Assembly: GCF_013201075.1 (NCBI RefSeq) | Contig: NZ_CP053710.1 | Location: forward strand, 248,001 to 312,000 | Direction: 5' to 3' | From: Lichenicola cladoniae | Lineage (GTDB): Bacteria > Pseudomonadota > Alphaproteobacteria > Acetobacterales > Acetobacteraceae | DNA length: 64,000 bases | Shown: positions 3,339 to 61,890 of the stretch, one piece after another | Numbering within the stretch: the stretch's first letter is position 1 | Layout: each line of letters begins with the position of its first letter | Position numbers and translations under genes: made by a program | The notes under the pieces: generated by a model | Seen by the model: the letters and a program-made list of their open reading frames with translations, nothing else | Told to the model about the DNA's origin: nothing | Databases searched by the model: none

Positions 3339-3356
3339 TCGGAAACTACTTATCGG
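3339..3356 (-). promoter_or_regulatory. Conserved regulon box upstream of dnaK
   Basis: On the coding strand it reads CCGATAAGTAGTTTCCGA. This is one of about 16 copies of the island box (consensus TRMGTAGTTTCCGA), placed 124 bp upstream of the dnaK ATG. This copy contains TAAGTAG, 7 of 8 positions of the FixJ-type half box GTAMGTAG. Confidence 0.7.
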
Positions 3357-3384
3357 CCGACGCGCCCCGGACCGATGTTGAGCG

Positions 3385-3400
3385 GTGAGTAGATTCCGAC
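3385..3400 (+). promoter_or_regulatory. Conserved regulon box upstream of the first BON gene
   Basis: GTGAGTAGATTCCGAC reads in the direction of the BON gene and lies 69 bp before its ATG. It has one T-to-A change inside GTAGTTTCC. With 3339-3356 it forms a divergent pair in the dnaK/BON intergenic region. Confidence 0.6.
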
Positions 3401-3468
3401 TCTATCAAACGTCTAAGTCTGTATTTCAAATGCAACAGACCAAACTGCGGCATCAACAGGGCATCACC

Positions 3469-4119
3469 ATGACCGAAGACAGCAATCTGCAATATGCGGT
3501 GCTCGCAGAGTTCAACTGGGAACCGAGCGTTGATCCAGCCAATATCGGCGTGACCGCGCGCAATGGCATCGTGACTCTCAGCGGCCACGTCGGGACTTTC
3601 GTCGAAAAATACGCCGCCGAATCGGCCGCCGCCCGCGTTAAGGGCGTGCTAGGCGTGGCCGAGGAGATCGAGGTCCGGCTGCCTTTTGGTATAACCCGCA
3701 CCGATGGTGAGATCGCTGCCGCGGCAGTCGAGCGCATGGCCTGGGACGTCGTCATCCCACGCGACGCCGTCAAGATCAAGGTGGAAGCCGGCTGGGTCAC
3801 TCTCAGTGGCGAAGTGGACGCATATCACCAGAAAAACGCGGCCGAACGTGAGATCCGGTCGCTGATCGGTGTCATCGGGCTATCGAATCAGATCGTCATC
3901 AGGCCTCGCATCGATACGCGAAATCTCAGCGACAACGTGATGCACGCCCTGCACCGGTCTCGGTTCTTCGACGCCAACACCATTACCGTCGAGGCCAATG
4001 GTGGCCATATCCATCTTACCGGCAACGTCCACACCCCACATGAACGCCGCGTGGCGGCAGCGACCGCATGGGCGGCCCCGGGCGCCACTTCGGTTCAGAA
4101 CGACCTGGCGATCCTCTAA
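3469..4119 (+). CDS. Protein with three BON domains
   Basis: 216 residues with three consecutive BON (OsmY/nodulation) repeats, each with the ITV..G.V.L.G.V pattern: roughly residues 19-65 (GIVTLSGHVGTFVEK), 90-145 (GWVTLSGEVDAYHQK) and 160-216 (GHIHLTGNVHTPHER). BON domains are thought to bind phospholipid or envelope surfaces and are often stress-induced. No signal peptide is visible, so location is uncertain. ATG 3469 is preferred over the upstream in-frame start at 3385 because the same N-terminus (M-x-x-D-S-x-L-Q-x-A-V-L-A-E-F) recurs in the truncated paralogue at 49229. Divergent from dnaK. Confidence 0.85.
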   Translation: MTEDSNLQYAVLAEFNWEPSVDPANIGVTARNGIVTLSGHVGTFVEKYAAESAAARVKGVLGVAEEIEVRLPFGITRTDGEIAAAAVERMAWDVVIPRDAVKIKVEAGWVTLSGEVDAYHQKNAAEREIRSLIGVIGLSNQIVIRPRIDTRNLSDNVMHALHRSRFFDANTITVEANGGHIHLTGNVHTPHERRVAAATAWAAPGATSVQNDLAIL

Positions 4120-4401
4120 TTCACTAGAAAAGTTCCGGTCCATGCACGTGATGGTGTTGAGCAGGATCGGGGCACTTTTGGGGCTGGACGGAACTGCTTT
4201 ATCTCGTCCCCCCGGCCCTAGTGCTCGACGCAGTTCGTAAGGGGGTTCGCATGGCCTGCGGCTGTATTCATATGCGCGACATTCCGAGTTGTCGCTACGA
4301 TCGGCTATGTGAGGAAATCTAGCTGGCGTCGGTCGCAAGACTGTAACTGCAGGACGGCCTGGGGCGTAGCTGTGCTCCTGCCGTAGCTTTGGCAAACTGA
4401 T
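4120..4401. other. Non-coding gap between convergent BON and adh genes
   Basis: About 280 bp separates the convergent 3' ends. The long minus-strand frame here continues the adh frame past its TAG, but it runs antisense to the BON gene and resembles nothing I recognise. No hairpin with a T-run was seen. Confidence 0.5.
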
Positions 4402-5436
4402 CTAGGTGTCGCTGAAGTCGATGACGACGCGGGAGGCGACATTCCCGCTTTCAAGTCGATCGAGCACGTCGTTGATCGACGACAGTTTCTGCAGCTCGAT
4501 ATCCGCCTTGACCTTGCCCTCCGCCGCGAAGGCAAGCGCTTCGGCCATGTCCTTGCGGGTTCCGACGAAAGATCCCCGCACCGTAATGCAGTCTGCTACG
4601 ACGTTGAACAGCGGTAAAGGCAGCTCGCCTGACGGGAGCCCCACCAGCACGCATGTTCCGCGCTTGCGCGTCATGCTCAGCCCCTGACAGAACGCCGGCA
4701 ACGATGCGGCGGTGATCAGAACGCCATGCGCGCCGCCATCGGTCGCGCGTCTCACCGCATCACCGACGTCCGGCTGCGAAGCGTTGAATTTCAGTTCCGC
4801 GCCTAGCTGTCGCGCGTGCTCGAGCTTACCGTCGTCAATATCAACCGCACAGACCTTCAGTCCCATAACCCTGGCATACTGGATCGCAAGATGGCCCAGT
4901 CCGCCGGCGCCGGAAATGACGATCCAATCGCCTGGTCGTGCTTCCATCTCCTTGATACCCTTGTAGGTCGTTACGCCGGCACAGATAATTGGAGCGGCCT
5001 CACGTGGGCCGAGTCCCGGCGGAATATGCGCGACATAGTCTGGGTCGGCGATGATGTATTCTGCGAAGCCGCCATTCTTTGTGTAGCCGCCGAATTCCGC
5101 CTTTGCGCAAACAGTCTCCCAGGCGGACAGACAGTATTCGCAGTGCCCGCATGCCGAGTAGAGCCATGGTACGCCCACGCGCTCACCCTCCGTCACGCTC
5201 GTCACACCTGCGCCGAGTGCCACCACGATGCCGATGCCTTCATGTCCTGGAATGAACGGAAGATGCGGCTTGATCGGCCAGTCGCCGCGTGCCGCGTGCA
5301 GATCGGTGTGGCAGACACCGCAGGCCTCGGTCTTCACCAGGATCTGCCCGGGCCCAGGCGTTGGAATGTCCCATTCCTGCAGGACCAGCTTCTTGCCTAG
5401 TCGTTCGACGACGGCCACTTGCATCTTCAATGCCAT
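4402..5436 (-). CDS. adhP: Zinc-dependent alcohol dehydrogenase, AdhP type
   Basis: Medium-chain Zn-dependent NAD(P)-alcohol dehydrogenase, 344 aa, interconverting primary alcohols and aldehydes; in fermentation it would reoxidise NADH. Catalytic-zinc ligands are visible in GVCHTDLH (Cys42) and GHEG (His65/Glu66). The four structural-zinc cysteines are Cys96, 99, 102 and 110 in CGHCEYC...C. The Rossmann motif GAGGLG is at 176-181. It ends at the usual family length with a TAG stop. A regulon box lies 186 bp upstream, its far edge now abutting an inserted IS5 element, which may cut the promoter from sequences further upstream. Confidence 0.95.
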   Translation of the reverse strand: MALKMQVAVVERLGKKLVLQEWDIPTPGPGQILVKTEACGVCHTDLHAARGDWPIKPHLPFIPGHEGIGIVVALGAGVTSVTEGERVGVPWLYSACGHCEYCLSAWETVCAKAEFGGYTKNGGFAEYIIADPDYVAHIPPGLGPREAAPIICAGVTTYKGIKEMEARPGDWIVISGAGGLGHLAIQYARVMGLKVCAVDIDDGKLEHARQLGAELKFNASQPDVGDAVRRATDGGAHGVLITAASLPAFCQGLSMTRKRGTCVLVGLPSGELPLPLFNVVADCITVRGSFVGTRKDMAEALAFAAEGKVKADIELQKLSSINDVLDRLESGNVASRVVIDFSDT

Positions 5437-5621
5437 GATATTCCTGTCAGCTTTGGGACTACGCTACGGCGTCGATAGCGGCGACGCGGACCAGCTTCTT
5501 ATTGATGGAATCCTGACATCTATGCCGAACCGTTTAGGTCGGAGGCTTGGTCGGACGTCTGCATGAAGATCCACAGCGTGTATGATCAGACACTACGCCG
5601 AAGCATCGCGCGAGCGGAGGG

Positions 5622-5636
5622 GCGGAAACTACCTAG
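5622..5636 (-). promoter_or_regulatory. Conserved regulon box upstream of adhP, edge hit by IS insertion
   Basis: Coding-strand reading CTAGGTAGTTTCCGC, 186 bp from the adhP start. The outer CTAG of this box is the insertion point of the IS5-family element at 5636-6484; the uninterrupted site can be reconstructed by joining 5635 to the DNA after 6486. Confidence 0.6.
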
Positions 5637-7943: not shown

Positions 7944-8882
7944 TCAAGATGCTGGCCTTTTTATCCACTGCAGAAAGCCATCGAGTGAATGGAATTCCGA
8001 CAGGCTGTGTGCATCGACGTTTGGGATCGCATTCTGCATCAGGCGAGCGAGTGCATTGCCTGGACCGAGCTCGATGACTTTGGACACGTTCGACTCGCGG
8101 CACGTCGACATGCAAGCGGCCCAGTCGACGGTCTGGCGGATCTGGCGCGCGAGCTTCTCTGCACCCGCCGCAACTGCAAAGACCGGGGCGCCGTCGATCC
8201 CGCTCAGCAACCGCACATTGGCTGGCATCCTCCCTGGTAGATGGGCGTCTGCGAGATCGCGTCCGAACTGGATGCTCGCAGTTTTTAACAGGGGCGTATG
8301 CGATGCCACCTCGACAGCCAGTAGTGTTGCCCTTACGGCCCCGGCCGCCTCGGCGTCGGTGATGACAGCTGCAAGCGCTGTCCTGGTCCCACCGACCAGC
8401 ATCTGATCACTGGCGTTGATGATGGCGATGTAGGCGCCGTGCGCGGTGCAGATCGGATCGAGTGTATCCCGCTTCAGTCCGCGTATGGCCACGAGGCCTG
8501 ACGGTTCGGTCGTGGCGGCATCCATGGCGGCCGCACGTTGGACAGCAAGCCGCAGAACCTCAGCGGCGTCCATGAGGCCGGCCACGCCCCAGGCGCCCAG
8601 CTCTCCGACGCTGTAGCCAGCCATAACCAGAGGCCCGGAGAGCTTCCCGCGGATGACTGCCCATGCGGCCATGGTCTGGGTGCAGCACAGGATCTGCCCG
8701 AGGTGGTTGGTGTGGATATCCTGACTACTCGCCTGCCGCACGAGCTCCCGCGGATCGCGACCGTCCAAGAGTGTCGTCGCTGCCTCGAAAACCGGAGCGG
8801 CCTCAGGGGCATCGGCCAGGAGGTCGAACATGCTGGCACTCTGAGCGCCCTGGCCAGAGCACACGATGGCCGTGCCAGTCAT
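7944..8882 (-). CDS. mdcH: Malonate decarboxylase malonyl-CoA:ACP transacylase, epsilon subunit
   Basis: 312-residue FabD-like acyltransferase that charges the malonate decarboxylase acyl carrier protein to start the cycle. The N-terminal GQGAQ motif, active-site serine 91 in GYSVGELGAWG, histidine in VASHTPLL and late ELGPGNALARLM are as in FabD/MdcH. The start overlaps the mdcB stop by 4 bp (ATGA), indicating translational coupling. Confidence 0.93.
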   Translation of the reverse strand: MTGTAIVCSGQGAQSASMFDLLADAPEAAPVFEAATTLLDGRDPRELVRQASSQDIHTNHLGQILCCTQTMAAWAVIRGKLSGPLVMAGYSVGELGAWGVAGLMDAAEVLRLAVQRAAAMDAATTEPSGLVAIRGLKRDTLDPICTAHGAYIAIINASDQMLVGGTRTALAAVITDAEAAGAVRATLLAVEVASHTPLLKTASIQFGRDLADAHLPGRMPANVRLLSGIDGAPVFAVAAGAEKLARQIRQTVDWAACMSTCRESNVSKVIELGPGNALARLMQNAIPNVDAHSLSEFHSLDGFLQWIKRPAS

Positions 8883-9772
8883 GAACGGCGCTCCAGCGCG
8901 TCGAGAAACAACGTAATCGCGAGAAGGTCGGCGCAGCCCCCGGGGCTGAGGCGCCGCTCAACGAAGGTCCGGTGGATCGTCCCTGCCGCTTGCCGCCAAT
9001 CCGGCTGTGCAACTCCTCCAAATCTCAGGAAGCTGGTTGCTGCTTTCCGGGCGTAGTTCAGGCCTTCAGGACCGCCACGGTGCAGCAGGTTGGTGTCCTC
9101 GGTGCATGCCATGAGGGCAAAGAAAGCTTGCACGCGGGCGGCTTCCGGATCTCCCGGTGCCTGCGCGCGACCGAGCCGCAGTGCCGGCAGCCCGATGCCA
9201 TATGCATCCGGAAATCCGGCGGCCGCCTGCGCTCTGGCTCCACCGGCGCCATATCGGCGCAGCGCGTCGGCGCCGTGGCTCCTCAGCGGGATCGGTCCCC
9301 GCGTGATCGATCTCCCCCACCGCGTACGCACGGTCCTGCACAGCACGTGCGGCGATACGCCGAGCGCGTCGCTGTCAACCTCGCTTTGGGCGGCACCTGC
9401 TGCGGCGCAAAGCAGACCGAGACCGAAGATGGCGCCCCGATGGGTGTTGACGCCGCCAGTTGCAGCCAGCATCGCGCACTCTGCCGCGACGCCGATTGCA
9501 CGTAGCCTATCCATAGGTGCCCCGGCGGCGCCTGCGATGACAAGTTCGGCAAAGAATGGCTCGATCGCCGTCGCACTGGCCCGGAAGGTCGCTTCCGTCA
9601 TGTCGAAATGACTGCCCTGGTCTATGTGGCTCACCAGGCCGGGCTTAGGCCAGGTCTCGAGTTCGGCGATCAGCGCCGCGGTCGCGATCTCGGCCACCCG
9701 AAGAGGGCTTTGGAGGTCGTGCGGATCGGGAAGCGGATCGGCTTCGGGTGCGAGCTGCAGGGCGACGTTCAT
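8879..9772 (-). CDS. mdcB: Triphosphoribosyl-dephospho-CoA synthase
   Basis: 297 residues of the CitG/MdcB family, which makes 2'-(5-triphosphoribosyl)-3-dephospho-CoA from ATP and dephospho-CoA, the precursor of the MdcC prosthetic group. Recognised by ELETWPKPGLVSHIDQGSHFDM near the N-terminus, GVNTHRGAIFGLGLL, and SPGGCADLLAITLFLDAL at the end. Overlaps mdcG and mdcH by 4 bp on each side. Confidence 0.92.
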   Translation of the reverse strand: MNVALQLAPEADPLPDPHDLQSPLRVAEIATAALIAELETWPKPGLVSHIDQGSHFDMTEATFRASATAIEPFFAELVIAGAAGAPMDRLRAIGVAAECAMLAATGGVNTHRGAIFGLGLLCAAAGAAQSEVDSDALGVSPHVLCRTVRTRWGRSITRGPIPLRSHGADALRRYGAGGARAQAAAGFPDAYGIGLPALRLGRAQAPGDPEAARVQAFFALMACTEDTNLLHRGGPEGLNYARKAATSFLRFGGVAQPDWRQAAGTIHRTFVERRLSPGGCADLLAITLFLDALERRS

Positions 9773-10425
9773 GACGAGGCGCAGCCCTGAAACAACCCGG
9801 CAATGGCTCGTGTTTCCACACCATCCATCGTCTTCAGCAGCATGCTGGAACAGTCCCGGCTGTCCGCGAACTCGCGCCAGTTGAACGCAGATCCGTCCGG
9901 CAGCTCCAGTTCGCCATCGATGCGAATTGGACTGTCGCGGTCCAGCCGAAGCAGTCCGGCAACGAGCGTCTCGACGCGGGTCCGGTCAGCGCCTGACCAG
10001 AGTAGATCGAGATCCGACCGCATCGTCAGATACGAGAGGCCCGTCAGGTGCTGCCACAGCAGTGAACCGAAAACGCGCGGCGAGACGCCGACTGTCTCGC
10101 CGAGCTCGACGAGCCCGGCGATCACCGCCTGCCACGCATCGGGTGCAGTAAGGGCCGCATCGCTGACGGAAACGGGCGCCAGGGGCAGCAGGCCGAGCGA
10201 GTCCGGGAAGCTGAAGGCGAGCCGGCGCTTGCCGTGCTCCGGCGGCAACGGCAATGCGGCCGGCACGGAGCCAAGCGCGTCGCCTGCCATGCGTCGCCGC
10301 ACGATCACCGGCCAGCCGTGGCGTGACCAGTCAGCCAGAAGCGGCAGGTCGCGCAACGCCGGATGGCGGCCGAGCATGGCCTCCCAGACAATCGGGTCCA
10401 CTGTCAGCAGGTCATGCCGACGCAT
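9769..10425 (-). CDS. mdcG: Phosphoribosyl-dephospho-CoA transferase (malonate decarboxylase holo-ACP synthase)
   Basis: 218 residues from ATG 10425. MdcG attaches the dephospho-CoA-based cofactor to the ACP subunit. Family features are MRRHDLLTVDP at the start, GWPVIVRRR, GLSYLTMRSDLDLLW (nucleotidyl-transferase-like Asp motif) and PDGSAFNWREFADS. The longer frame to 10524 would extend deep into mdcE; ATG 10425 gives only a 14-bp overlap with the mdcE 3' end and has a GGGCGG-like ribosome site. Confidence 0.9.
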   Translation of the reverse strand: MRRHDLLTVDPIVWEAMLGRHPALRDLPLLADWSRHGWPVIVRRRMAGDALGSVPAALPLPPEHGKRRLAFSFPDSLGLLPLAPVSVSDAALTAPDAWQAVIAGLVELGETVGVSPRVFGSLLWQHLTGLSYLTMRSDLDLLWSGADRTRVETLVAGLLRLDRDSPIRIDGELELPDGSAFNWREFADSRDCSSMLLKTMDGVETRAIAGLFQGCASS

Positions 10426-11155
10426 GACCACCGCCCTTGCCCAGCGCCTCGGCGACGACCCTCTTCGCGACGGCGGCAGCCATGGGCCGTCCTCCACGCT
10501 GTGCGCCGGTCTTGTCACGGACATCGGTGGACGACGTGGTCGCTAGCGTCTCCTCCAGCTGCGCGTCCAGCGGTTTTGCCGGGTCCCAGACTGCAGCCAC
10601 GGCGCCCATCTGGACCATGTGATCAAGCCCGGGTGCGAATACCGAGGTCGTCTTCGCGAGCTCCTCCAGCTGTTTCACCGGCAGCTTGGTCACCCGCGCG
10701 ACCGAGGGCAGATCCATGACCGTGGGCGTCGCACCGGGAAGGCCGATGAGCACGTCGGTCGCCAGCGCCGTCGCCAGGAAGGCACCCGCGGCGGCCTTGC
10801 CGTATTCCAGGCCGATCGTCCGGTGGCCCTGCTGGCTGGCGAGCAGCAGGCACTTGGCGAGATGGGCGAGATACTCGTTCAGCCCGCGCATCTCGTCGCG
10901 CCGCGCCATGAGCTGGCCCTGTGTGTCCACGAGGACCAGGATCGGCGTATCACCACCGGCATCGACCACCTGCAGCACCTGTTCCGCCAGCGGCAGAACG
11001 CCGGCCGTTCCCAGCGCTACGCCATTGGCCACGCCGATCACCGCGATCGTTCCGCCGTCGCGCCGCTTGCCCGAGCCGGTGATAGAGCCGTCCGCGCTAA
11101 CGCTGACGCCGTGGCCGGACGGGAACAGGCTCTTCAGGATCTCATCGAGCGTCAT
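10412..11155 (-). CDS. mdcE: Malonate decarboxylase gamma subunit
   Basis: 247 residues, crotonase-like carboxyltransferase partner of MdcD that decarboxylates malonyl-S-ACP to acetyl-S-ACP. Recognised by the start MTLDEILKSLFPSGHGV, ILVLVDTQGQLMARRDEM, and the glycine-rich GAATPTVMDLPSVARVT-type segment around residues 140-160. Start overlaps the mdcD stop by 14 bp. Confidence 0.92.
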   Translation of the reverse strand: MTLDEILKSLFPSGHGVSVSADGSITGSGKRRDGGTIAVIGVANGVALGTAGVLPLAEQVLQVVDAGGDTPILVLVDTQGQLMARRDEMRGLNEYLAHLAKCLLLASQQGHRTIGLEYGKAAAGAFLATALATDVLIGLPGATPTVMDLPSVARVTKLPVKQLEELAKTTSVFAPGLDHMVQMGAVAAVWDPAKPLDAQLEETLATTSSTDVRDKTGAQRGGRPMAAAVAKRVVAEALGKGGGHASA

Positions 11156-12068
11156 GATTGGCTCCCTTGATGCTGTTGGCGAGCGTCACGAAGCCATCGG
11201 TGTCCATCGCGCTGACTGCTTCGGGATCGTCGATCCCCAGGATCTTCCACATCGAGACTGCGTCCGTGCAGCCGCCGAACAGTTTCTCCCGCTCCGCCAA
11301 CCGGTCCTGCTCCGCACGCATGGAGCGGAGGTCGAAGCTCGGCACACGGTCGAGGATCGCTTTGGCGGCAGTGCGAAACCCGTCCATCGAGTCGGCGGTG
11401 AACGCGTCCGCGCCGCCGATCAGCCGGCGGTTCTTGCCGCCCGCGACACTCCAGACCAGCGCCTTGTCCTTCGAGTCGAATTCATCAACCCCCTTGTTGG
11501 TCTCGATGACCTCGGGTCCGGAAACACCGATGCGACCCTGTTCCGACACGATGATCCGCGAGCAGGTCGCAGCCGTCAGGCCCGCGCCGCCGAAGGCGCC
11601 GGCCTTGCCGCCGACCAGCGCGATCACGGCGACCCCGGCACAACGTGCCTCGATCACCGCCCGCATGATCTCGGCGACCGCAAGCTCGCCCGCATTGGCC
11701 TCCTGCAACCGGACGCCACCGCTATCCAGCAGCAGCAGGACCGTGCGCGGCAGCTCCTGATGGTCTCTCGCGGCCCGCAGCAGGCCGACGATCTTGGCGC
11801 CGCTGACCTCGCCGAAGGTACCGCCCATGAACTGGCCCTCCTGTGCTGCCAGCAGCACCAGTGTGCCGTCCAAGGATCCACGCCCGATGACCACGCCGTC
11901 ATCGAAGGCGGACGGAAGATCGAACAGATGCAGATGCGGGCTCTGCACACGCTCGATCGGCTGGAGGAACTCGGTGAAGCTGTGCGGGTCCAGCAGCCCG
12001 GTGATACGCTGGCGCGCCGTCGACTGCAGCCAGCTGCTGTGGCCATAGGCCGGTTGGGTATCCATCAC
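11142..12068 (-). CDS. mdcD: Malonate decarboxylase beta subunit
   Basis: 308 residues, beta-carboxyltransferase fold. Together with MdcE it removes CO2 from malonyl-ACP without biotin. Visible blocks: RQRITGLLDPHSFTEF, GTFGEVSGAKIVGLLRAA, LLLDSGGVRLQEANAGE (oxyanion-hole region), GGKAGAFGGAGL and the acidic C-terminal half. Separated from mdcC by 10 bp. Confidence 0.94.
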   Translation of the reverse strand: MMDTQPAYGHSSWLQSTARQRITGLLDPHSFTEFLQPIERVQSPHLHLFDLPSAFDDGVVIGRGSLDGTLVLLAAQEGQFMGGTFGEVSGAKIVGLLRAARDHQELPRTVLLLLDSGGVRLQEANAGELAVAEIMRAVIEARCAGVAVIALVGGKAGAFGGAGLTAATCSRIIVSEQGRIGVSGPEVIETNKGVDEFDSKDKALVWSVAGGKNRRLIGGADAFTADSMDGFRTAAKAILDRVPSFDLRSMRAEQDRLAEREKLFGGCTDAVSMWKILGIDDPEAVSAMDTDGFVTLANSIKGANHDAR

Positions 12069-14122: not shown

Positions 14123-15058
14123 TTATCCCATGCCGGCGGTCAGATAGATCGCGGCAGCCAGAGTCGCCGCACTGAGGACAGTGCTTGCGATCAACGTCGA
14201 GCCGACGACCTCTGACGCGATGCCGAAGCGCAACCCGAACAGGATGCCGAAGAAGCCGACCGGGAGCGCTGAAAGCACAATAGACTCCCGCATTGCCAGA
14301 GGCGGCACGGCGAGTGCCCAGGCCAGGGCCGCCGCGAGCAGCGGATGGATGACGTTGGCCGTAAGGGTTTGAATGCTCACGCTCAGGCCGAGCCGCACCT
14401 TCTGGGCCGACAGGATCAACCCGGTCAGGAACAGCGCCGCGCCGCCGCCAGCCTGCCCGATCAACGACACCGAACGTGCCAGCGGTTCGGGTAGTCCCAG
14501 CCCGGTGGCAACGAAGGCGACCGCGAGCAAGGGTGCCAGCACAATCGGCTTCTTGAAGGTGCTCAGAAACGCTTTTCCGATACCGCCCTGTCCCGGCTTC
14601 TGGGAGTTCCTGTTCAGAATGATGAGCGTTATCGGTGAGACCACGATCGATCCGCAGGCGATCGCCACCGCAACGGACACCAGTTGGGGAGCGCCGAGAA
14701 GTGCCGCGATCAGTGGCAGACCCGCCGACGCATAGTTCGGCAGCGACGTGGTCAGGGCCTGGACCGATGCCTCGCCAGGTTGCACGCCATAGACGCGACG
14801 AGCCATGACATACATCAAGACATAAAGAATTAGCATGGAGAGGGAGAGGATCGCCGCGAGCGGAAGTTGCTGATACAGGGTTGTCCGGGATGCCTGAACG
14901 ACGGTCGCGAAGATCGCGGCGGGAACCGCAAAGTCCATGACAAGCGCGTTCAACTGAGCGACATTCTTGTTGTCGAGGTCGCGGCTCCAACCGCCCAGGT
15001 AGCCCAATCCGATACCAAAGAATACAGGAAGCAGCGCATCCAAAATAATCTTTATCAA
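14123..15058 (-). CDS. mdcF: Malonate transporter, auxin efflux carrier (AEC) family
   Basis: 311 residues with about ten hydrophobic segments and the AEC N-terminus (LLPVFFGIGLGYLGGW, then LNALVMDFAVPAAIF), plus PNYASAGLPLIAALLG mid-protein. As first gene of the mdc cluster it fits MdcF, a malonate permease; an efflux role cannot be excluded from sequence alone. A regulon box stands 122 bp upstream of its ATG, so the whole mdc-oprB operon (about 8.5 kb) would be driven from there. No mdcR-type LysR regulator is in the window. Confidence 0.88.
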   Translation of the reverse strand: MIKIILDALLPVFFGIGLGYLGGWSRDLDNKNVAQLNALVMDFAVPAAIFATVVQASRTTLYQQLPLAAILSLSMLILYVLMYVMARRVYGVQPGEASVQALTTSLPNYASAGLPLIAALLGAPQLVSVAVAIACGSIVVSPITLIILNRNSQKPGQGGIGKAFLSTFKKPIVLAPLLAVAFVATGLGLPEPLARSVSLIGQAGGGAALFLTGLILSAQKVRLGLSVSIQTLTANVIHPLLAAALAWALAVPPLAMRESIVLSALPVGFFGILFGLRFGIASEVVGSTLIASTVLSAATLAAAIYLTAGMG

Positions 15059-15179
15059 GTGCGCTCCGTGAATAGATATTGATTATATTTGACCGATGAC
15101 GAGCGGTTCAAGTGAACTGACCCACTCGCTTCCGCGTCGATATCAGTTTTCTACCGTCGCAGGCGATACGCCACTAGGC

Positions 15180-15195
15180 TCGGAAACTACTCATC
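15180..15195 (-). promoter_or_regulatory. Conserved regulon box upstream of the mdc operon
   Basis: Coding-strand reading GATGAGTAGTTTCCGA, continuing GCCT as in the ndvB and ATPase boxes; 122 bp before mdcF. The flanking 15059-15464 has no other convincing gene. Confidence 0.65.
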
Positions 15196-15824: not shown

Positions 15825-15908
15825 ATGGATACGTAGTTGTCTCCAGAGTCCTCATCCATACCGGCTTTAGAGTTTATTTAAACCAGCTCGGGGTGAATGG
15901 AGATAGGA

Positions 15909-15925
15909 TCGGAATCTACTTAATC
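15909..15925 (-). promoter_or_regulatory. Conserved regulon box upstream of the small BON gene
   Basis: Coding-strand reading GATTAAGTAGATTCCGA, 85 bp from the start of the gene to its left; one mismatch in the core, the same T-to-A change as the box before the first BON gene. Confidence 0.6.
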
Positions 15926-49013: not shown

Positions 49014-49075
49014 CGTGTCCTCCCTTATTGGTGATCCGGCAGCATAGGAAACCGGAACCGACGCCAACGGCAGGC

Positions 49076-49228: not shown

Positions 49229-49292
49229 ATGTCTCAAGACAGCCAGTTGCAGCAAGCCGTCCTGGCGGAATTCGACTGGGAGCCTGGTGTTT
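49229..49292 (+). pseudogene. N-terminal stub of a third BON-domain gene
   Basis: MSQDSQLQQAVLAEFDWEPGV matches the N-terminus of the BON protein at 3469 residue for residue at most positions, then the frame enters IS481 sequence. A GGGAG site precedes the ATG. The rest of the gene is not found on the far side of the IS, so it has been deleted. Confidence 0.78.
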
Positions 49293-50170
49293 CGTCCCAG
49301 GTTTTGATGGTGCATTCTTATCCGGTGTATGGAAGGAAGGATTATGGGCCAGGTTCTGCATGGCTGCGCCACGACGACCGCGGCAATCCGTCGAGCGATA
49401 AAGCATAGTCAAAAGAGCCTCAGGGCTCTCGCCCGACGTTACGGCATCAACCAGAAAACCGTCGCCAAGTGGAAGCGGCGGAATTTCGGTGACGGACCAG
49501 CCAACCGGTCCAAGAGACCCGAAATCCGCCGTGTTGTGGGTTGAGAACGAGACGATCATCGTGGCCTTCCGTTGCCATACGCTGCTGCCACTCAACGACT
49601 GCCTCTACGCCCTGCAGGCGACTATCCCGCATCTGACCCGCTCGTCACTGCATCGCTGTCTGCAACGCCACGACATCTCGCGCCTGCCTGACGTCACTGG
49701 CGACAAGCCCGACAAGCAGAAATTCAAGGAATATCCGCTCGCTATTTCCATTTCGACATCACCGAGGTCCGCACCGAGCAGGGCAAGCTCTACCTTCTTG
49801 TCGCCATCCACCGGACTTCGAAGTTCCCTTTCACCCAGCTGCATGAGAAAGCCACCAGGTAGGTCGCCGAAGCCTTTCTCCGCACCCTCATCAAAGCCGT
49901 GCCCTACAAGATCCACACCGTCCTGACAGACAATGGCACCCATTTCACAACGCCGGGAAATGTCTGCTCGGCCGCCGCCAATATCCCTATTGCCATGGAT
50001 AGGGGTGAATTCTACCGGGCGCGCTCGTTCGAGTATGCGTGCGCTCAGAACAGCATCGATCATCGACTGACCAAGCCGTGCCACCCGTGGACCAACGGGC
50101 ATGTCGAACGCATGAGCCGGACCCTCAAGGAGGCCACCGTCAAGCGATACCACTATGAGAGCCAAGACTA

Positions 50171-52153: not shown

Positions 52154-53248
52154 TCAGGGGCTGGAGAGGCCGGCTGTCATCGTGCTGGTCGGTCCTACCG
52201 GAACGCCGTTGAGCCCGACCTGCCACTCCATCAACGCGTCGTAATCGCCGCGAAGCGCTGCCTGATTGCACAGGGCGCGATGCTGCAACGCCTCCTGTGC
52301 GTCATGCCGGTTGGCGTCGTCGCCACGCCATATCTCCAGGGCAGGCTGCTGGATAGCGCGCGCAAACGAGAAGACGAGGGGCCATGGGAGATCTCGGCGC
52401 GGATAGCCGGCCTGGATGTTCATCGCGTTGAGTCGCGCCGACGCCAGCTCGCCGGACTGTCCGCCCGACAGGAACGCGATGCCGGCGACCTCCGCCGGCA
52501 CGTGCTGCAGCAGGCACGCGATCGTAGCTGTCGCAACCGCGTCTGCTGACACCTGCACTGTACTCGTCAGCCCGGGGAGAACCATGTTCGGCTTCAGGAT
52601 CAGTCCGTCGAGGGCCACACCCTGGGTGGCGAGTTCATCGAAGACAGCCGCGAGCACGTCGCCAGTAACGATCTGGCAGCGTTCCAGCGTGTGGTTGCCG
52701 GTCATCAGGACTTCCGGCTCGACGATCGGGACTAGGCCCGCCTCCTGGCAAAGGGCGGCATAACGGGCCAAGGCTTGAGCATTCGCCTTAATGCAGGCGA
52801 GGCTCGGGAAGCCTTGCCCGATGCCGATCACGCCGCGCCACTTGGCAAACCGTGCGCCGAGCAGGGCATAATCCTTCAAGCGATCGCGCAGCCCGTCCAG
52901 CCCTTCGGTGACTGTCTCGCCCGGATGCAGCGCCAGTGGCTTGGCGCCCAGATCTACCTTGATCCCGGGGATGATGCCGGCGGCCACCAGCCGTTCGACC
53001 ATGAGCACACCGTGGCTGTCCTGCTGGCGGATAGTCTCGTCATAGAGGATCGCCCCGCTGATGCAGTCGCCAAGCCCGGGCGTGGTCACCAGCAGCTCGC
53101 GATAGGCCCGCCGCGCATCCACTGTCTGCGGGATGTCGACAACCGCGAAGCGCTTGTTGCAGGTGGGCGTGCTCTCATCCATCGCGAGCAGGCCGCGGCC
53201 CTCCGCGACCAGAGCATGCGCCGTGGCAGTCAACCCGCGCCGGCTCAT
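52154..53248 (-). CDS. fba: Class I fructose-1,6-bisphosphate aldolase
   Basis: 364 residues from ATG 53248, whose ATGA overlaps the xfp stop. Schiff-base class I aldolase: [83 protein letters not shown] and the Schiff-base Lys in [11 protein letters not shown]. Splits fructose-1,6-bisphosphate to triose phosphates, complementing phosphoketolase and TPI in this cluster. Confidence 0.95.
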
Positions 53249-55668
53249 GCTGTGGCGCTCCATTTCCAGTTGCGTATCTCGGGCAGGTCCTCACCGTGCT
53301 TGTCGATGTACTGCTTGTGCTCGATCAGCTTGTCGGCCATCAGCTGCCGCAGATAGGCACCCTTGGTGCCGAGCCCCGGCACGCGGTCGACGACGTCCTG
53401 CACGAGATGGAAACGGTCGAGCTTGTTCTGGACACGGATGTCGAAGGCGGTGGTGATGGTTCCCTCCTCGACATAGCCGCGCACGTGGATATTGCGGTTC
53501 GTGCGACGGTAGGTCAGGCGGTGTACCAGCGACGGGTAGCCGTGGAACGCGAAGATGATGTGCTTCTGCTTGGTGAACAGCTCGTCGTACTCGACCTCGC
53601 TCAGCCCATGCGGATGCTCGCTCGCCGATTGCAGCCGCATCAGGTCCACCACGTTGATCACCCGTATCTTCAGATCCGGCAGATGCTCCCGCAGGATCGA
53701 TACCGTAGCGAGGATCTCGAGCGTCGGCGTGTCGCCGCAGCAGGCCATGACGACATCCGGCTCCTCGGTGTGATCGTTGCTCGCCCATCTCCAGATGCCG
53801 AGCCCCTGGGTGCAGTGGATCACCGCCTCGTCCATGGTGAGCCATTGCGGCATCAGATGCTTGCCGGCGACCACGACGTTCACGTAATGGCGGCTGCGCA
53901 AGCAGTGGTCGAACACCGACAGCAGGCAGTTCGCATCCGGCGGTAGATACGCACGCACAATGTCGGCCTTCTTGTTGATCACGTGGTCGAGGAAGCCCGG
54001 ATCCTGATGCGTGAAGCCGTTATGATCCTGCTGCCACACATGCGATGCGAGCAGATAATTGAGCGATGCGATCTTGCGGCGCCAAGGCAATTCCGACGTG
54101 ACCTTCAACCATTTCGCGTGCTGGCTGAACATGGAATCAACGATCCGGATGAACGCCTCGTAGCTGTTGAACAGGCCGTGGCGACCGGTCAGCAGATAGC
54201 CCTCGAGGAAGCCCTCCGACTGATGCTCGCTCAGCATCGAGTCGACGACGCCGCCGTCCGGCGAAAGGAACTCGTCATCGGGCACCTCCAGCGCGTCCCA
54301 CTGGCGGTTCGTGACCTCGAAGACCGCACCGAGCATGTTCGACAGCGTCTCGTCCGGGCCGAAGATACGGAAGTTGCGCGGCTGGTCGTTCGCCGACACG
54401 ATGTCGCGAAAGAACTGCCCGAGCACCGTGGTATCCGAGGCGACGACAGCGCCTGGCGACGGAACATCGACGGCGTGCACACGGAAATCGGGCATCAGCA
54501 GGTCGCGCAGCAGCTGCCCGCCATTAGTGTGTGGGTTGGCACCCATGCGGCTGTTTCCCTGCGGTGCAAGTGCTGCCAGCTCGGGAAGCAGTCGCCCCTG
54601 CGCGTCGAACAGCTCCTCGGGCTTATAGCTCCGCATCCAGCTCTCCAGCTGCGACACGTGTTCCGCATGTGCGTGATCCACCAGCAGCGGCACCTGATGC
54701 GCGCGGAAGGTGCCCTCCACCTTGAGGCCGTCGACCATCCTGGGGCCGGTCCAGCCCTTCGGCGACCGCAGCACGATCATGGGCCAGCGCGGACGGGCAG
54801 GTATGCCGGTCGTGCGCGCCTGGACCTGGATGTCGTGGATGTCCTGCACGACGCGCTCCAGGGTCGTCGCCATCAGCGTGTGCATGGCGTCTGGATCGTC
54901 GCCCTCCACGAAATAGGGCGTCCAGCCGCAGCCGCGGAAGAACTGCTCGAGCTCCTCGTGGTCGATCCGCGCGAGGATGGTGGGATTGCTGATCTTGAAG
55001 CCGTTGAGATGCAGGATCGGCAGCACGGCGCCGTCGGAAATCGGGTTCAGCAGCTTGTTGGAGTGCCAGGCGGTCGCCAGTGGTCCGGTTTCCGACTCTC
55101 CGTCACCCACCACGCAGGCGACGATGAGGCCGGGATTGTCTAACACGGCACCGAAGGCATGGCTCAAAGAATAGCCGAGCTCGCCGCCCTCGTGGATCGA
55201 TCCGGGCGTTGTCGGCGCGACATGGCTCGAGATGCCACCGGGAAAGGAGAACTGCGTGAACAGCCGCCTCAGTCCGGCCTCGTCCTGACTGATGCTCGGG
55301 TAGATCTCGCTGTAGCTGCCTTCAAGGTAAGTGTTTGCCACCAGCGCCGGCCCGCCGTGTCCGGGCCCAGATACATAGAACATGTCGAGGTCGTATTTCT
55401 TGATGACCCGGTTCAAATGCACATAGATGAAGTTCTGGCCTGGCGTGGTGCCCCAGTGACCGACGATCAACGGCTTGACGTGGGCGAGCGTCAACGGCTC
55501 ACGCAGCAGCGGATTGTCGTAGAGGTAGATCTGACCGACCGAGAGGTAGTTCGCGGCGCGCCAGTAGGCGTTCATCAGCCGGACTTCAGCGGCATTGATG
55601 ACCGCACCCTCCGGCGGCCGCTCCGTCGTGGCGATCGGAAGCCTTGGGCTTGTTACGATCGTATCCAT
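53245..55668 (-). CDS. xfp: Xylulose-5-phosphate / fructose-6-phosphate phosphoketolase
   Basis: 807 residues, full length. ThDP-dependent enzyme that cleaves X5P or F6P with phosphate to acetyl-phosphate plus G3P or E4P. Key blocks: [64 protein letters not shown], ThDP motif [70 protein letters not shown] and [16 protein letters not shown]. First gene of xfp-fba-gpm-membrane protein, all overlapping or spaced by 2 bp. A box lies 123 bp upstream. Acetyl-phosphate would go to acetate kinase, whose gene nearby is destroyed. Confidence 0.97.
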
Positions 55669-55773: not shown

Positions 55774-55790
55774 GTCTGTGGATGGGTGCA

Positions 55791-55809
55791 GCCTCGGAAA
55801 CTACTCAGC
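55791..55809 (-). promoter_or_regulatory. Conserved regulon box upstream of the xfp operon, overlapping the glk stop codon
   Basis: Coding-strand reading CTGAGTAGTTTCCGAGGC, 123 bp before xfp. The TAG stop of the glucokinase gene (55803-55801) is the TAG of GTAGTTTCC. Confidence 0.7.
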
Positions 55810-57111: not shown

Positions 57112-57858
57112 CTAGCGGTCCGTCAAGCCGAGTATTGCATCGAATTTATCTGCCTTCAGGCTGGCCCCGCCGATCAGCAGGCCCCCAACCTCGGGAATGC
57201 TCAGGATTTCTGCCGCATTATCTGACGTCACTGACCCGCCATACAGGATTCGGATTGCCGATCCGAAACCACCGAACTGGGTCATCAGGCAGGACCGGAT
57301 ATGCTGGTGCATTTCAGTGACCTGCTCCGAACTTGGCGGATGACCGCTTCCGATCGCCCAGAGCGGCTCATACGCGATCGCAGTTACCGCAGGTTTGCTC
57401 GGCGCGCTGAAAAGACTGCCGGCCAGCTGGCTGGCGCAGCTGGTCAGGGCTCTTCCGTTGCTGCGCTGTTCCTGTGTCTCGCCGATGCAGACGATGATAC
57501 TCAGGCCGGCCCTAAAGCCCGCCAGCGCCTTCGCCGCGACTACTGCGTCAGTTTCCTGGTGAAGCCGCCGGCGCTCGGAATGGCCGACGATCACTGTGGT
57601 CGCTCCCGCATCCTTCAGCATCTCGGCGCTGACATCTCCGGTAAACGAGCCAGAAGCCTCCGCGTGACAATCTTCACCCCCCATCGGAAGCCGACCGGCC
57701 GCGACTTGAACGGCTCGGGAGATCAAGGTCGCCGGAACGCAGAGCAGCACGTCGGCATGAAGCGGCCTCGACGCAACGCAGGCTGCCATCAGCTCGATTT
57801 CCGGAAGCTGATCACTGAGACCGTGCATCTTCCAGTTGCCGGCAATCAGCTGACGCAT
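57112..57858 (-). CDS. tpiA: Triosephosphate isomerase
   Basis: 248 residues, intact. N-terminal catalytic Asn/Lys in IAGNWKMHGL, electrophile His in TVIVGHSERRRLHQETD, catalytic Glu in IAYEPLWAIGSGHPPS, phosphate loop ILYGGSVTSDNAAEIL and GGLLIGGASLKADKF. Start ATG 57858 matches the conserved MRQLIAGNWK; the longer frame overlaps the SHOCT gene. Second TPI of the window and the only one without lesions. Confidence 0.96.
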   Translation of the reverse strand: MRQLIAGNWKMHGLSDQLPEIELMAACVASRPLHADVLLCVPATLISRAVQVAAGRLPMGGEDCHAEASGSFTGDVSAEMLKDAGATTVIVGHSERRRLHQETDAVVAAKALAGFRAGLSIIVCIGETQEQRSNGRALTSCASQLAGSLFSAPSKPAVTAIAYEPLWAIGSGHPPSSEQVTEMHQHIRSCLMTQFGGFGSAIRILYGGSVTSDNAAEILSIPEVGGLLIGGASLKADKFDAILGLTDR

Positions 57859-57868
57859 GGCACAGGCA

Positions 57869-58183
57869 TCACAGGGCTGTCCGGCCAACGAGAGTGGAGA
57901 TCGGAGCAGCTGAAGCGACAGCGCCACGCCGCGCGATCGGGGTTGAACTACCTGCGATGTCGGATTTCAGTTGAGCATACTCCTCGCGGGTGATGTCGCC
58001 GCGCGCATAACGCTCATCGAGGATGTCGAACGCCCGGTTATCCGGCCGGCCTGAAAACCTCTGATGCGCACGGTAGGTGTAGCCCCAGTTCCCGAAGCTC
58101 GACAGCATCAGGAAGATGAAGCCGAACCATAGGAACCAGCCCCAGCCAAGAAATCCGTCGTTCCAGTAGGTATGGATCATCAT
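57869..58183 (-). CDS. SHOCT-domain small membrane protein
   Basis: 104 residues. N-terminal Trp-rich membrane helix (FLGWGWFLWFGFIFLMLSSFGNW), then the SHOCT motif AFDILDERYARGDITREEYAQLKSDI (short C-terminal oligomerisation-type domain). Role unknown; such proteins often accompany stress genes. 10 bp before tpi, and a box lies 68 bp upstream, so it heads a SHOCT-tpi-(glk) unit. Confidence 0.82.
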   Translation of the reverse strand: MMIHTYWNDGFLGWGWFLWFGFIFLMLSSFGNWGYTYRAHQRFSGRPDNRAFDILDERYARGDITREEYAQLKSDIAGSSTPIARRGAVASAAPISTLVGRTAL

Positions 58184-58250
58184 GCCGCCTCATGGTCTTG
58201 AAGTTGATCTGTTGAGACAAATATTCCCCAATGCCGAAGTTAGCGGCAGC

Positions 58251-58267
58251 TTCGGAAACTACTTAGC
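58251..58267 (-). promoter_or_regulatory. Conserved regulon box upstream of the SHOCT-tpi unit, overlapping the ackA stop codon
   Basis: Coding-strand reading GCTAAGTAGTTTCCGAA, 68 bp before the SHOCT gene. It provides the TAG stop of the acetate-kinase remnant (58261-58259). Contains TAAGTAG. Confidence 0.7.
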
Positions 58268-59362: not shown

Positions 59363-59805
59363 GTGTCGGCTGCGGGCTCCCGGCCGGATCGACAGGAGCC
59401 ACGCATGCATCGACATCCCATCCCTGGCCGGCAAGAGGGGTATCAAAATAAGGCTAAACCTGACCGATCGAACTTGGTTCGGGACAAACCGCCATTTTCT
59501 AAAGTTCGGAACGGCACCCCGCTCGCCTTCGTCATGCTTGCGCTAACACGCCGTTCAAAGAGTCTCTCGGTTCAACCCCGCCAGTCCGCGGCAAGACAAA
59601 CCGCGCACGGCATCGAGACCAGCCAAAAGCTAAGGCATTACCGATAGGTCATCGAGCTGACCTTCGCCTGGATCGACCGCAACAGCCGCCTCGTCATACG
59701 CTACGAGCGGAGAAGCAGCATACATTACCCCCCCTCTCGCCTGCGCGCTCATCTGCTTCAACGGACTGCAGAGCGGTTTCGAAGGCATTCTAAGACCGCA
59801 CGGCG
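59363..59805 (+). pseudogene. IS5-type transposase debris and unassigned sequence
   Basis: 59363-59635 holds nothing I can assign. From about 59640 the plus strand reads (TAG)VIELTFAWIDRNSRLVIRYERRSSIHY, then in another frame LICFNGLQSGFEGI, which is the C-terminal region of IS5-type transposases (R-R-W-V-I-E-R-T-F-A-W). The Trp codon is TAG here. Confidence 0.6.
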
Positions 59806-61155
59806 TTAGTTTCTCGGATCCGGGATCGGCGTGAGCTTGCCGAGGAGAAAGACGTAGGAGAGGATCCCGATAATTAGCACGATACCGGCGACCAGGAACG
59901 CATCGGTGAAGGAATGCGTCGCTCCGACAATATAGCCGGTCGCGATCGGCGCGACGGCACCCATCATGTTGTTCAGGAAGTTCATGATGCCGCTGATCGT
60001 CCCGGTGGCACCCTTTGGAGCAATCAGTGAGGGAATGGACCAGCCAACCGGTGCTGCTGCGGCAAGGCCGCTCAGAGCGATCGAGATCCAGACGATCGCC
60101 CACACCGGGTCGGCCGTCAGGGTGGCGCCGAAGACTGCGAGACCGAGCAACATTCCAGACACGAGCACGGTCTTGCGAACCCGCGTATCGTCATAACCTT
60201 TCGTGATTAGGTGGTCAATCAGCCAGCCACCGACAACAAGATCGGCGACGGTCGCGCACGCCCATGGCACTGCGGCAAACCCCGCGGACTTCAGGATGCT
60301 CATATGCATCGTCTGGACGAGGTAGTTTGGCAGCCACGTGAGGAACAGATAAAATGAGTATCCGTAGGCCGCGAAGCCGATCGTCAGCCCCCAGAGCTTC
60401 CGGTTGCGCAAGAGATGGCCGAGCATGACCATACCGCCGCTCGCTGCCGGTCCCTCGACGGCGGCCCCGCCCGCACGAATATACTCGCGCTCCTCGGAAC
60501 TAAGCCGCGGATGCTTGCTGGGATCTCGGTAGAAGAAAAAGAACATCAGGAAATACAGGAAGCTCAACGACGCTGTTACCACGAACCCAAAACGCCAACC
60601 GAAGTTAACGACGACCAGGGCGACGATCGGAACGCCAATGACGTTAGAGAACTTCGCCCCAGCGTCGAAGATCGATGTCGCTAGCGATCGCTCCTGGCGC
60701 GGGAACCAGTAGCCCGTGGCCTTCGCACTTGCAGGGAAACCGGGTGCCTCAGCCGCGCCCAGCAGGATGCGCGCACCAAAGATACCCGCGAAGCCACTCA
60801 TGAATGCGGTCGAGGCGGAGATCATCGACCAGATCAGCGTGCTGCAGCGATTTGTTTTGGTGACGCCGAAACGATCCAGGATCATGCCCGTTGGGATCTG
60901 CATGAGGGCGTATGACCAGAAAAATCCACTGAAAAGCCAGCCTAACTGACCATCGGTGAGGGTGAAGGCATGCTTGAGCTGGGGCGCCGCGACGGACAGG
61001 TTGATCCGGTCGAAATAGTTGACGAGCACTCCACAACCCAGAAGCACACCGATACCCCATCGCAATCTTGGGACGTGTCGTGCCGCGCCGGCCGGTGCCG
61101 GCACTACCGTTTCTCGGATCGGCGCGCTTTGGGGAGCCGCAACATTGACTGTCAT
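59806..61155 (-). CDS. MFS transporter, anion:cation symporter type (sugar acid uptake)
   Basis: 449 residues, twelve predicted helices, ACS-family signature features: LLGCGVLVNYFDRINLSVAAPQL, LFSGFFWSYALMQIPTGMILDRFG, GARILLGAAEAPGFPASAKATGYWFPRQERSLATSIFDAG, GTISGIMNFLNNMMGAVAPI. Family members import hexuronates, galactonate, glucarate or related acids. The start overlaps the gluconokinase stop by 4 bp, suggesting gluconate or a related sugar acid as substrate. Confidence 0.9.
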   Translation of the reverse strand: MTVNVAAPQSAPIRETVVPAPAGAARHVPRLRWGIGVLLGCGVLVNYFDRINLSVAAPQLKHAFTLTDGQLGWLFSGFFWSYALMQIPTGMILDRFGVTKTNRCSTLIWSMISASTAFMSGFAGIFGARILLGAAEAPGFPASAKATGYWFPRQERSLATSIFDAGAKFSNVIGVPIVALVVVNFGWRFGFVVTASLSFLYFLMFFFFYRDPSKHPRLSSEEREYIRAGGAAVEGPAASGGMVMLGHLLRNRKLWGLTIGFAAYGYSFYLFLTWLPNYLVQTMHMSILKSAGFAAVPWACATVADLVVGGWLIDHLITKGYDDTRVRKTVLVSGMLLGLAVFGATLTADPVWAIVWISIALSGLAAAAPVGWSIPSLIAPKGATGTISGIMNFLNNMMGAVAPIATGYIVGATHSFTDAFLVAGIVLIIGILSYVFLLGKLTPIPDPRN

Positions 61156-61766
61156 ATCCGCGATCCTGACATTGCCGGCTGTTGCCGCGACGCCACGAGG
61201 TCCCGCTGTTCCAGCTGTTGCACGATGGTTGCGGCAATATCGGAAGGGGGAGTACCGATATTCACCGTGATTGGTCGCTCATCCTCCGTGGGTTCCTCTA
61301 AGGTCGAGAACTGGCTATCCAGCAGCGCTACCGGCATGAAGTGCTCGAGCCGTGCCGTCATGCGACGACGGATGAGGTCGTGTGATCCCTTCAGGTAAAC
61401 CAGCGTCACGTGGGAGCGATCTCCGATGAGGATCTTGCGATACGCGCGTTTCAGCGCCGAGCAGGTCACGACTGCTGACTCGCCCCTTGCGCGCCAGCCG
61501 TCGACCTCCTTGGCGATCTTCTGCAGCCAAGGCAGTCGGTCGGCATCCGTCAGCGGCGTTCCACTGTGCATCTTCTGCACATTAACGGCCGGGTGAAGGT
61601 CATCACCCTCCTGAAACTGGCAACCGAGAGCTGCCGCTAGGAGGGCAGCCACCGTGGTCTTACCTGATCCAGAGACCCCCATGATTACGACTATGACAGG
61701 ACGACTTAGCGAGGGCGTAAACGCTGGAGACCAAAAGCGCCGCGCTTGCCCATCATGTTCAACCAT
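61152..61766 (-). CDS. gntK: Gluconokinase (GntK type)
   Basis: 204 residues; AGGAGG stands 5 nt before ATG 61766. Walker A GVSGSGKT at residues 30-37, EGDDLHPAVNVQKMHSGTPLTDADRLPWLQ, VVTCSALKRAYRKIL, VYLKGSHDLIRRRM and HFMPVALLDSQFSTLE are diagnostic. Makes 6-phosphogluconate, which enters the pentose-phosphate or Entner-Doudoroff pathway and can supply Xfp with xylulose-5-phosphate. A box lies 109 bp upstream. Confidence 0.94.
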   Translation of the reverse strand: MVEHDGQARRFWSPAFTPSLSRPVIVVIMGVSGSGKTTVAALLAAALGCQFQEGDDLHPAVNVQKMHSGTPLTDADRLPWLQKIAKEVDGWRARGESAVVTCSALKRAYRKILIGDRSHVTLVYLKGSHDLIRRRMTARLEHFMPVALLDSQFSTLEEPTEDERPITVNIGTPPSDIAATIVQQLEQRDLVASRQQPAMSGSRI

Positions 61767-61874
61767 GGATACCTCCTACTCAAAGCCTTCGGACCTGCCC
61801 GTGTCACGCGATTGACGGATGCCCGCATTGTCAACACCGGGATTCGATAGGGCGCCATGGCAATCGCTCATAGC

Positions 61875-61890
61875 TTCGGAAAATACGCAG
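61875..61890 (-). promoter_or_regulatory. Conserved regulon box upstream of gntK-MFS
   Basis: Coding-strand reading CTGCGTATTTTCCGAA, two differences in the core; 109 bp before gntK. The rightmost box of the island. Confidence 0.55.

Follow-up and report, generated by a model that had tools for sequence, protein, structure and literature searches.

Why do genes as unlike as dnaK, an alcohol dehydrogenase and a 2891-residue ndvB-like protein stand behind one and the same short sequence in Lichenicola cladoniae? The stretch that raises this question, hereafter the window, comprises 64,000 nucleotides (nt) of this member of the Acetobacteraceae (assembly GCF_013201075.1) and corresponds to C3:248001-312000, where C3 is the contig NZ_CP053710.1 (354,209 bp) of a 6.06-Mb genome. 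A first-pass annotation, made from the letters alone, had noticed a conserved box before some 16 transcription units and had proposed from it a single regulator and a single regulon of about 60 kb. Here we confirm that the box is a real, non-chance element of an island larger than the window, and find that it is linked across genomes to one kind of regulator, in which a sensor, a histidine kinase, two receivers (REC) and a FixJ-type GerE DNA-binding domain form a single polypeptide. We consider it very probable that the box is the operator of this hybrid protein, which would act as a class II activator.

Results

A conserved box confined to one island

When up to three mismatches are allowed, the 14-mer TRMGTAGTTTCCGA matches the window 25 times, where 7.2 matches are expected; the highest count among 100 shuffled sequences is 15. 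Stricter forms are confined to one part of the genome. All 15 exact copies of GTAGTTTCCGA lie within C3:230873-331119 (reversed control, 1), and all 19 copies of the 18-bp TRNGTANWTTCCGANNCT, a form picked after the sites had been seen, lie within C3:230869-332199 (backward-read control, 0), so that the exact forms are not distributed over the genome at random frequency. With at most one mismatch, TRMGTAGTTTCCGA occurs at 27 places in the genome, 24 of them within C3:219993-332195.

A 20-bp weight matrix was trained on 16 window sites, which we assigned to the targets of the first-pass annotation since few coordinates were given there. This matrix holds about 21 bits, gives leave-one-out scores of 16.4-30.7 bits, and finds 19 matches of at least 12 bits in the window (reversed matrix, 1), that at 25219-25238 being additional to the training sites. 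It recovers the divergent pairs described at 3.3, 19.4 and 49.1 kb, to which pairs at C3:219.9 and 230.9 kb can be added, and it places below 12 bits the two sites that had been set apart as exceptions, at 55765 and 20296. In the held-out flanks, nine matches of at least 14 bits were found in the 29 kb to the left of the window and five in the 21.5 kb to the right (reversed, 0 and 0), 14 in all, compared with one in a 400-kb sample from the rest of the genome (reversed, 1); at 12 bits that sample gave two (reversed, 5).

All 34 matches of at least 12 bits in C3:190001-354209 fall within 219-333.5 kb, with none in the remainder. Because the window is only C3:248001-312000 of a longer contig, the island extends past both of its ends; the boxed region, of which the window covers the middle, has its approximate limits at C3:219.9 and 332.2 kb and measures about 112 kb rather than the 60 kb first proposed. 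Although 78% of the island is called coding, 31 of the 34 matches lie outside called genes, as had been anticipated, and for 25 a called start in the same direction is found no more than 350 bp away, representing 24 distinct genes (calls are from our own simple caller, and starts are approximate). One match in the window (30905-30924) is intragenic. An Rfam scan of the window gave zero matches.

Two fused FixJ-type regulators in the island

GerE domains (E ≤ 0.001) number eight in the genome, two of them in the island and six elsewhere. In both island proteins a FixJ-type DNA-binding end is fused to a whole phosphorelay. The LOV form (C3:239213-241516, minus strand; 767 amino acids, aa) has the order PAS(LOV)-HisKA-HATPase-REC-REC-GerE, and the CheB-CheR form (C3:321249-325628, minus strand; 1459 aa) the order CheB-CheR-PAS_10-HisKA-HATPase-REC-REC-GerE; in Pfam the sensors are a LOV-like PAS_9 and a PAS_10, respectively. 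Being fused to kinase and sensor, neither has the stand-alone two-domain REC-GerE layout, and their scores against the NCBIfam FixJ model NF006900 (200.1 bits for the LOV form, 220.7 for the CheB-CheR form) fall below its cut-off of 255. The closest solved structure to the GerE domain of the LOV form is nevertheless Sinorhizobium meliloti FixJ, 1X3U (E = 3.4e-15, the best among the 15 matches listed).

The recognition helices of the pair are SQRTVENHRASIMRKT and SQRTVENHRASIMRRT, and those of the remaining six GerE proteins differ. A single regulator had been envisaged; the idea of one operator serving one kind of regulator stands, and the single protein gives way to two paralogues with near-identical recognition helices.

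The PAS domain of the LOV form best matches structures named blue-light-activated histidine kinase (Brucella LOV-HK; E ~1e-42). It carries GRNCRFLQG, with the adduct cysteine of the G-x-N-C-R-F-L-Q motif, and its NYRKDG (NYKKSG), FWN and SQLDVT segments, which hold flavin-contact residues, align with the same structures.

Linkage of box and regulator across genomes

In a family set of 200 genomes, the regulator was scored as present at 45% or more identity to the kinase-receiver-GerE protein, some matches being contig fragments. Exact boxes number 214 in the 38 genomes with the regulator (mean 5.6) and 72 in the 162 others (mean 0.44), a co-occurrence with a Mann-Whitney p of 2.7e-18, or 8.4e-18 with our own genome removed, compared with 0.025 for the reversed pattern (all uncorrected for relatedness). 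In 20 relatives, 370 kb of sequence surrounding the regulator was scanned, at loci that are 68-95% called coding. Here the matrix finds 58 matches at 14 bits (reversed, 3) and 64 at 12 bits, 61 of the latter outside called genes and 44 co-directional with a start no more than 350 bp away.

A second set was drawn from a public genome scan, as the best 80 of 552 related stretches. Twenty of these named loci were taken as core regulator loci by identity and coverage; their names include Hyphomicrobium, Parvibaculum, Acidiphilium, Shinella, Rhodoblastus, Rhizobium, Novosphingobium, Magnetospirillum and Azospirillum. The core loci hold 51 matches at 14 bits in 364 kb, with a box in 18 of the 20 (reversed, 2), whereas 59 other FixJ-type loci hold two in 1045 kb, in two of the loci (reversed, 16). 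One locus with a partial match and three boxes (L112) was excluded from both groups, and L108, whose box spacing equals that of one of the relatives (G055), is taken as the same contig, so that relatives and named loci are not fully independent. Island confinement, intergenic placement, the held-out prediction and co-occurrence with the regulator clade together strongly support a common operator for one type of regulator.

Several results weigh against this conclusion. Both the 45% cut and the division into 20 and 59 loci were set after the matches had been seen, and the co-occurrence statistics ignore kinship among genomes. Four of the 38 regulator genomes are without any exact box. Conversely, seven of the 162 genomes classed as lacking the regulator hold three or four: one (G078) has a 34% match and another (G006) a diverged fused form, while five (G128, G053, G004, G193 and G106) gave no REC-GerE match at 1e-20. 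Two of these five assemblies, G053 and G106, are 97% complete; possible explanations for the five are chance, a different protein, loss of the regulator, or a replicon absent from the assembly. The 59 other FixJ-type loci give 10 matches when the threshold is lowered to 12 bits (reversed, 30). The bare 14-mer TRMGTAGTTTCCGA at up to two mismatches is found at 71 places in our genome and its reverse at 63, which is no enrichment, and loose matches are uninformative because they barely exceed this control. Finally, the 700 bp preceding the start of the LOV gene are free of boxes, and the downstream promoter element described below is found in its strict form at just 8 of 32 own sites.

Three of the regulator loci deserve separate mention. 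Two core regulators have altered recognition helices (SPRTVEVHRA in L068; ISTRT... in L059); the first locus is boxless and the second has one box, and a changed DNA specificity is possible in both. At L104 (Acidiphilium iwatense, 8783-11842) a stop codon interrupts the regulator frame and the first start has no preceding box, so this regulator is possibly a decayed copy.

Promoter anatomy and a proposed mechanism

Pooling our own sites with those of relatives and named loci (L112 included, L108 left out) gave 132 distinct sites of at least 16 bits, with the consensus TRNGTAGTTTCCGANNCT. A second conserved patch, TA---T, begins 21-22 nt past the 20-mer box. TAnnnT occurs 20-23 nt beyond the box at 61 of the 132 sites, whereas the mirror position on the other side shows it at 4, and TA stands at offsets 20-23 in 12 of the 19 window boxes of at least 12 bits. 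Since this -10-like element lies 20-23 nt downstream, the box would be centred near -44, over the place of the -35 element, a geometry that suggests a class II activator site.

The proposed regulator is a sensor (LOV or CheB-CheR-PAS) mounted on a HisKA/HATPase kinase, followed by a first receiver and then by a FixJ-type receiver with its GerE helix-turn-helix (HTH). On a signal, the kinase would phosphorylate the C-terminal receiver, allowing GerE to bind TRNGTAGTTTCCGANNCT; standing in place of the -35 element, just upstream of the -10, the bound protein would recruit RNA polymerase. Both island paralogues are predicted to switch on the same approximately 25 units, comprising stress, envelope and fermentation or energy genes.

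This circuit may include feedback. Counted from the earliest possible start of the regulator, a box of at least 12 bits is found at -700 to +200 in 12 of the 20 relatives and in our own CheB-CheR form, and in 15 of the 20 named loci; at 23 of 27 such loci (relatives and named) it points at the divergent neighbour. Ten boxed neighbours were scanned. Six have a receiver domain (five receiver-only proteins and one ferritin-REC), and the other four are a GGDEF protein, a YflT-type protein, a matchless one and an open reading frame (ORF) of our own genome with HTH domains. Our own receiver-only gene (C3:238696-239118) follows the LOV regulator, and a 17.1-bit box stands in the gap; like its counterparts in several relatives, this gene may provide feedback. 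Because Asp9, Asp53 and Lys100 are kept in all six receivers compared, these proteins could act as phosphate sinks, or, by analogy, as FixT-like inhibitors. LovR has been proposed to be a phosphate sink (PMC4438053), and FixT is described as an inhibitor (PMC7078487).

Targets of the box and exchange of sensors

The boxed units of the window range from dnaK to a gntK-like gene (Table 1). Outside the window the box precedes genes for a porin, an amino-acid permease, adenylate kinase, NAD(P)HX repair, an FAD oxidoreductase, a CBS protein, acetate kinase, a PRC protein and a further alcohol dehydrogenase. Three boxed BON genes had been reported; two BON genes are in the window (3385-4119 and 15465-15824), and another, at C3:313.5 kb, is outside it.

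Table 1. Box matches in the window (window coordinates; scores are those of the 20-bp matrix)
Feature	Position	Strand	Score (bits)	Unit or context
Box	3334-3353	-	30.8	before dnaK (ORF 1320-3215 -), HSP70
Box	3385-3404	+	25.5	before three-domain BON gene (ORF 3385-4119 +, called start 3430)
Box	5617-5636	-	23.3	before zinc alcohol dehydrogenase (4402-5436 -), ADH_N
Box	15175-15194	-	31.6	before AEC-type transporter (14123-15058 -), Mem_trans
Box	15904-15923	-	27.9	before one-domain BON gene (15465-15824 -)
Box	19366-19385	-	30.4	before HAD (pgmB-like)/GH65 pair (18464-19264, 16176-18467 -)
Box	19439-19458	+	26.9	before 65-aa ORF (19580-19777 +), no Pfam match
Near-palindromic box	25102-25126	both	17.1 (+), 27.9 (-)	minus strand toward slipin/Band_7 gene (24133-25077 -)
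Box	25219-25238	+	21.4	additional box; possible target a 65-aa call (25399-25596 +)
Match inside ATPase gene, opposite strand	30905-30924	+	14.9	coding; probably non-functional
Box	31761-31780	-	26.2	before cation ATPase/PPK2 (28731-31661, 27836-28909 -)
Box	36338-36357	-	21.5	before groES (Cpn10), called start 36188
Box	38621-38640	-	24.5	before PRC-barrel gene (37743-38534 -)
Box	49071-49090	-	31.3	before 2891-aa GH94/glucoamylase-domain ndvB-like gene (40289-48964 -)
Box	49122-49141	+	22.1	before 66-aa ORF (49208-49408 +), no Pfam match
Box	55789-55808	-	29.0	before xfp/aldolase/phosphatase unit (53245-55668 - and downstream), XFP
Box	58247-58266	-	29.6	before SHOCT/tpi pair (57869-58183, 57112-57927 -)
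Box	61871-61890	-	25.7	before gntK-like kinase/MFS (major facilitator superfamily) transporter (61152-61766, 59806-61155 -)

The copy at 25102-25126 is the sole one in the window to score at least 12 bits on both strands. Malonate decarboxylase (mdc) genes come after the AEC-type transporter on the same strand. For groES the longest ORF would begin upstream of the box. The groES-groEL unit (33391-36383) itself looks broken, since the match of the GroEL-like ORF to the Cpn60 model is limited to the later portion of the model, and since this ORF is separated from groES by an IS4/5-type transposase (34631-35440; IS, insertion sequence). Two triosephosphate isomerase genes lie in the island, the boxed one and another at 36426-37169.

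In relatives, 30 boxed targets were scanned. Of these, 15 belong to envelope or stress types (OmpA, PRC, BON, YflT, LTXXQ, WXXGXW, ferritin, LpxR, Ysc84 and DUF1269), seven are signalling proteins (six with a receiver and one GGDEF), six are enzymes or a transporter (phosphoketolase, two old-yellow-enzyme types, a nitroreductase, a 2-hydroxyacid dehydrogenase and an MFS protein) and two are matchless. When 47 proteins of our island were compared with 40 regulator loci, the shared boxed targets were few (BON, PRC, XFP, cation efflux and, weakly, alcohol dehydrogenase), so that within the stretches compared the content of the regulon is just partly conserved.

The sensor varies as well. Six proteins were scanned for domain layout in relatives. 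The CheB-CheR-PAS layout of our second regulator recurs in L071, and the 1450-1620-aa frames of most relatives fit it; the Shinella protein (L107) is CheB-PAS, that of L063 has PAS only, and that of Magnetospirillum (L111) has no recognised sensor. In Azospirillum cavernae (L117, 4752-10939) a separate REC-GerE protein (369 aa) is encoded divergently from a CheB-CheR-PAS kinase-REC. The NCRFL motif was found in none of the other regulators examined (those of the 20 relatives and of named loci L098-L119), so the LOV form is special to our genome within this sample, which leaves out weaker matches covering the LOV part (e.g. G114 and G098). The sensors seen on this output are CheB-CheR-PAS, CheB-PAS, PAS and LOV.

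Discussion

Which signal does this circuit serve? The first reading to consider is a low-oxygen regulon like Burkholderia lxa or canonical FixLJ; it bears on the signal and can hold together with the fused regulator. A FixJ-type site would suit it, as would phosphoketolase, acetate kinase, polyphosphate kinase and the stress genes, which fit energy limitation, and LOV kinases have been suggested as redox sensors (PMC4438053). Against it, both island regulators have a LOV-type PAS or PAS_10 and, by Pfam, no evident heme-PAS FixL domain (no genome search for FixL was made), and half of the scanned boxed targets of relatives (15/30) are of envelope or stress types. With such sensors and such targets nothing in the data requires a low-oxygen signal; it is possible, though we think it rather unlikely.

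Could the box instead be bound by an ordinary stand-alone FixJ-type regulator encoded elsewhere, such as C3:110097 (266 aa), the fused pair being in the island by coincidence? The box does resemble a FixJ operator, six of the eight GerE domains lie outside the island, and five family genomes hold three or four boxes without a close REC-GerE match. The SQRTVENHRA helix, however, is limited to the two island proteins among the eight, C3:110097 having SEITVKIHRG; the loci of 59 other FixJ-type proteins are nearly boxless, and co-occurrence in the family tracks the fused clade. We regard this alternative as improbable.

An alternative sigma factor promoter, such as that of the EcfG general stress response, is more improbable still. 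The EcfG promoter has a -35 element GGAAC, a spacer and GTT. GGAAAC does occur on the reverse strand of the box, and the boxed target types resemble general-stress genes; the box, however, extends over 20 bp with about 21 bits and tracks a DNA-binding regulator across genomes, and GGAAC-N15-18-GTT was found near it at just 2 of the 132 sites, on which ground this promoter was rejected. An origin of the box in a dispersed repeat or an IS end, as several IS transposase genes in the island might suggest, can be dismissed, since the sequences flanking 32 of our own sites show no greater likeness to one another (mean identity 0.262 upstream and 0.264 downstream, against 0.721 in the box) than shuffled sequence does (0.261, upstream).

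We return, then, to the fused regulator. A broader proposal, to which we give an even chance, is that this regulon is widespread in Alphaproteobacteria, with the operator and the HK-REC-REC-GerE output (HK, histidine kinase) kept while the sensor is swapped, fused or split, and that in L. cladoniae the LOV paralogue, as one polypeptide, puts about 25 stress and fermentation units on a 112-kb IS-bearing island under blue-light or flavin-redox control. If so, many stress, envelope and energy genes of Alphaproteobacteria could be assigned to a defined regulator by sequence and their start sites predicted; natural sensor swaps on a constant operator and output would open the rewiring of signal to regulon to direct testing; and the LOV form would offer a light switch ready for use, made of one protein and one operator. 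No prior description of the fused regulator, or of GTAGTTTCCGA as an operator, was found in the literature searched, most subscription journals lying outside the search; where the 11-mer or its complement does appear in papers, their titles have nothing to do with gene control in bacteria.

How does this system compare with known ones? EL222-type LOV-HTH proteins resemble the LOV form, according to Protein Data Bank (PDB) matches, in joining LOV and a GerE HTH in one protein. They differ from it, to our knowledge, in being without kinase or receivers. LOVHK/LovK with LovR shares the GRNCRFLQ LOV on a kinase, a receiver-only protein nearby and a role in stress control (PMC4438053); its output goes to PhyR and a sigma factor, whereas in the island proteins one chain includes the DNA-binding domain as well. 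The Burkholderia lxa/DosR regulon is likewise a large contiguous cluster of stress and metabolic genes under common control; it is described as linked to a CRP/FNR-type regulator and as rich in universal stress proteins (PMC6127331).

The closest parallel is FixL-FixJ of Sinorhizobium and Caulobacter, with which our regulators share the FixJ-type REC-GerE output and the operator core GTAGTTTCC. According to PMC4999443, the S. meliloti FixJ site selected in vitro by systematic evolution of ligands by exponential enrichment (SELEX) is GTAGTTTCCC, the fixK site is TAAGTAATTTCCCTTA, and a further selected class is GTAMGTAG; for the fixK promoter of Rhodopseudomonas palustris, PMC13327599 reports GTACGTAG. 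Nine of ten letters agree between the core of our box, GTAGTTTCCG, and GTAGTTTCCC, a likeness in sequence that does not extend to the 3' part; GTAMGTAG is less box-like. The receiver-only protein in our regulon recalls FixT (PMC4999443, PMC7078487). There are differences, however. Here kinase and FixJ part are in one chain with an extra REC, the sensor is LOV or CheB-CheR-PAS, the operator ends in CCGANNCT and not in CCCTTA, and 24 genes are directly boxed, compared with the four candidate FixJ targets in Rhizobiales named in PMC4999443. The receiver-only proteins here keep the phospho-Asp, whereas phosphorylation of S. meliloti FixT reportedly went undetected in vitro (PMC7078487).

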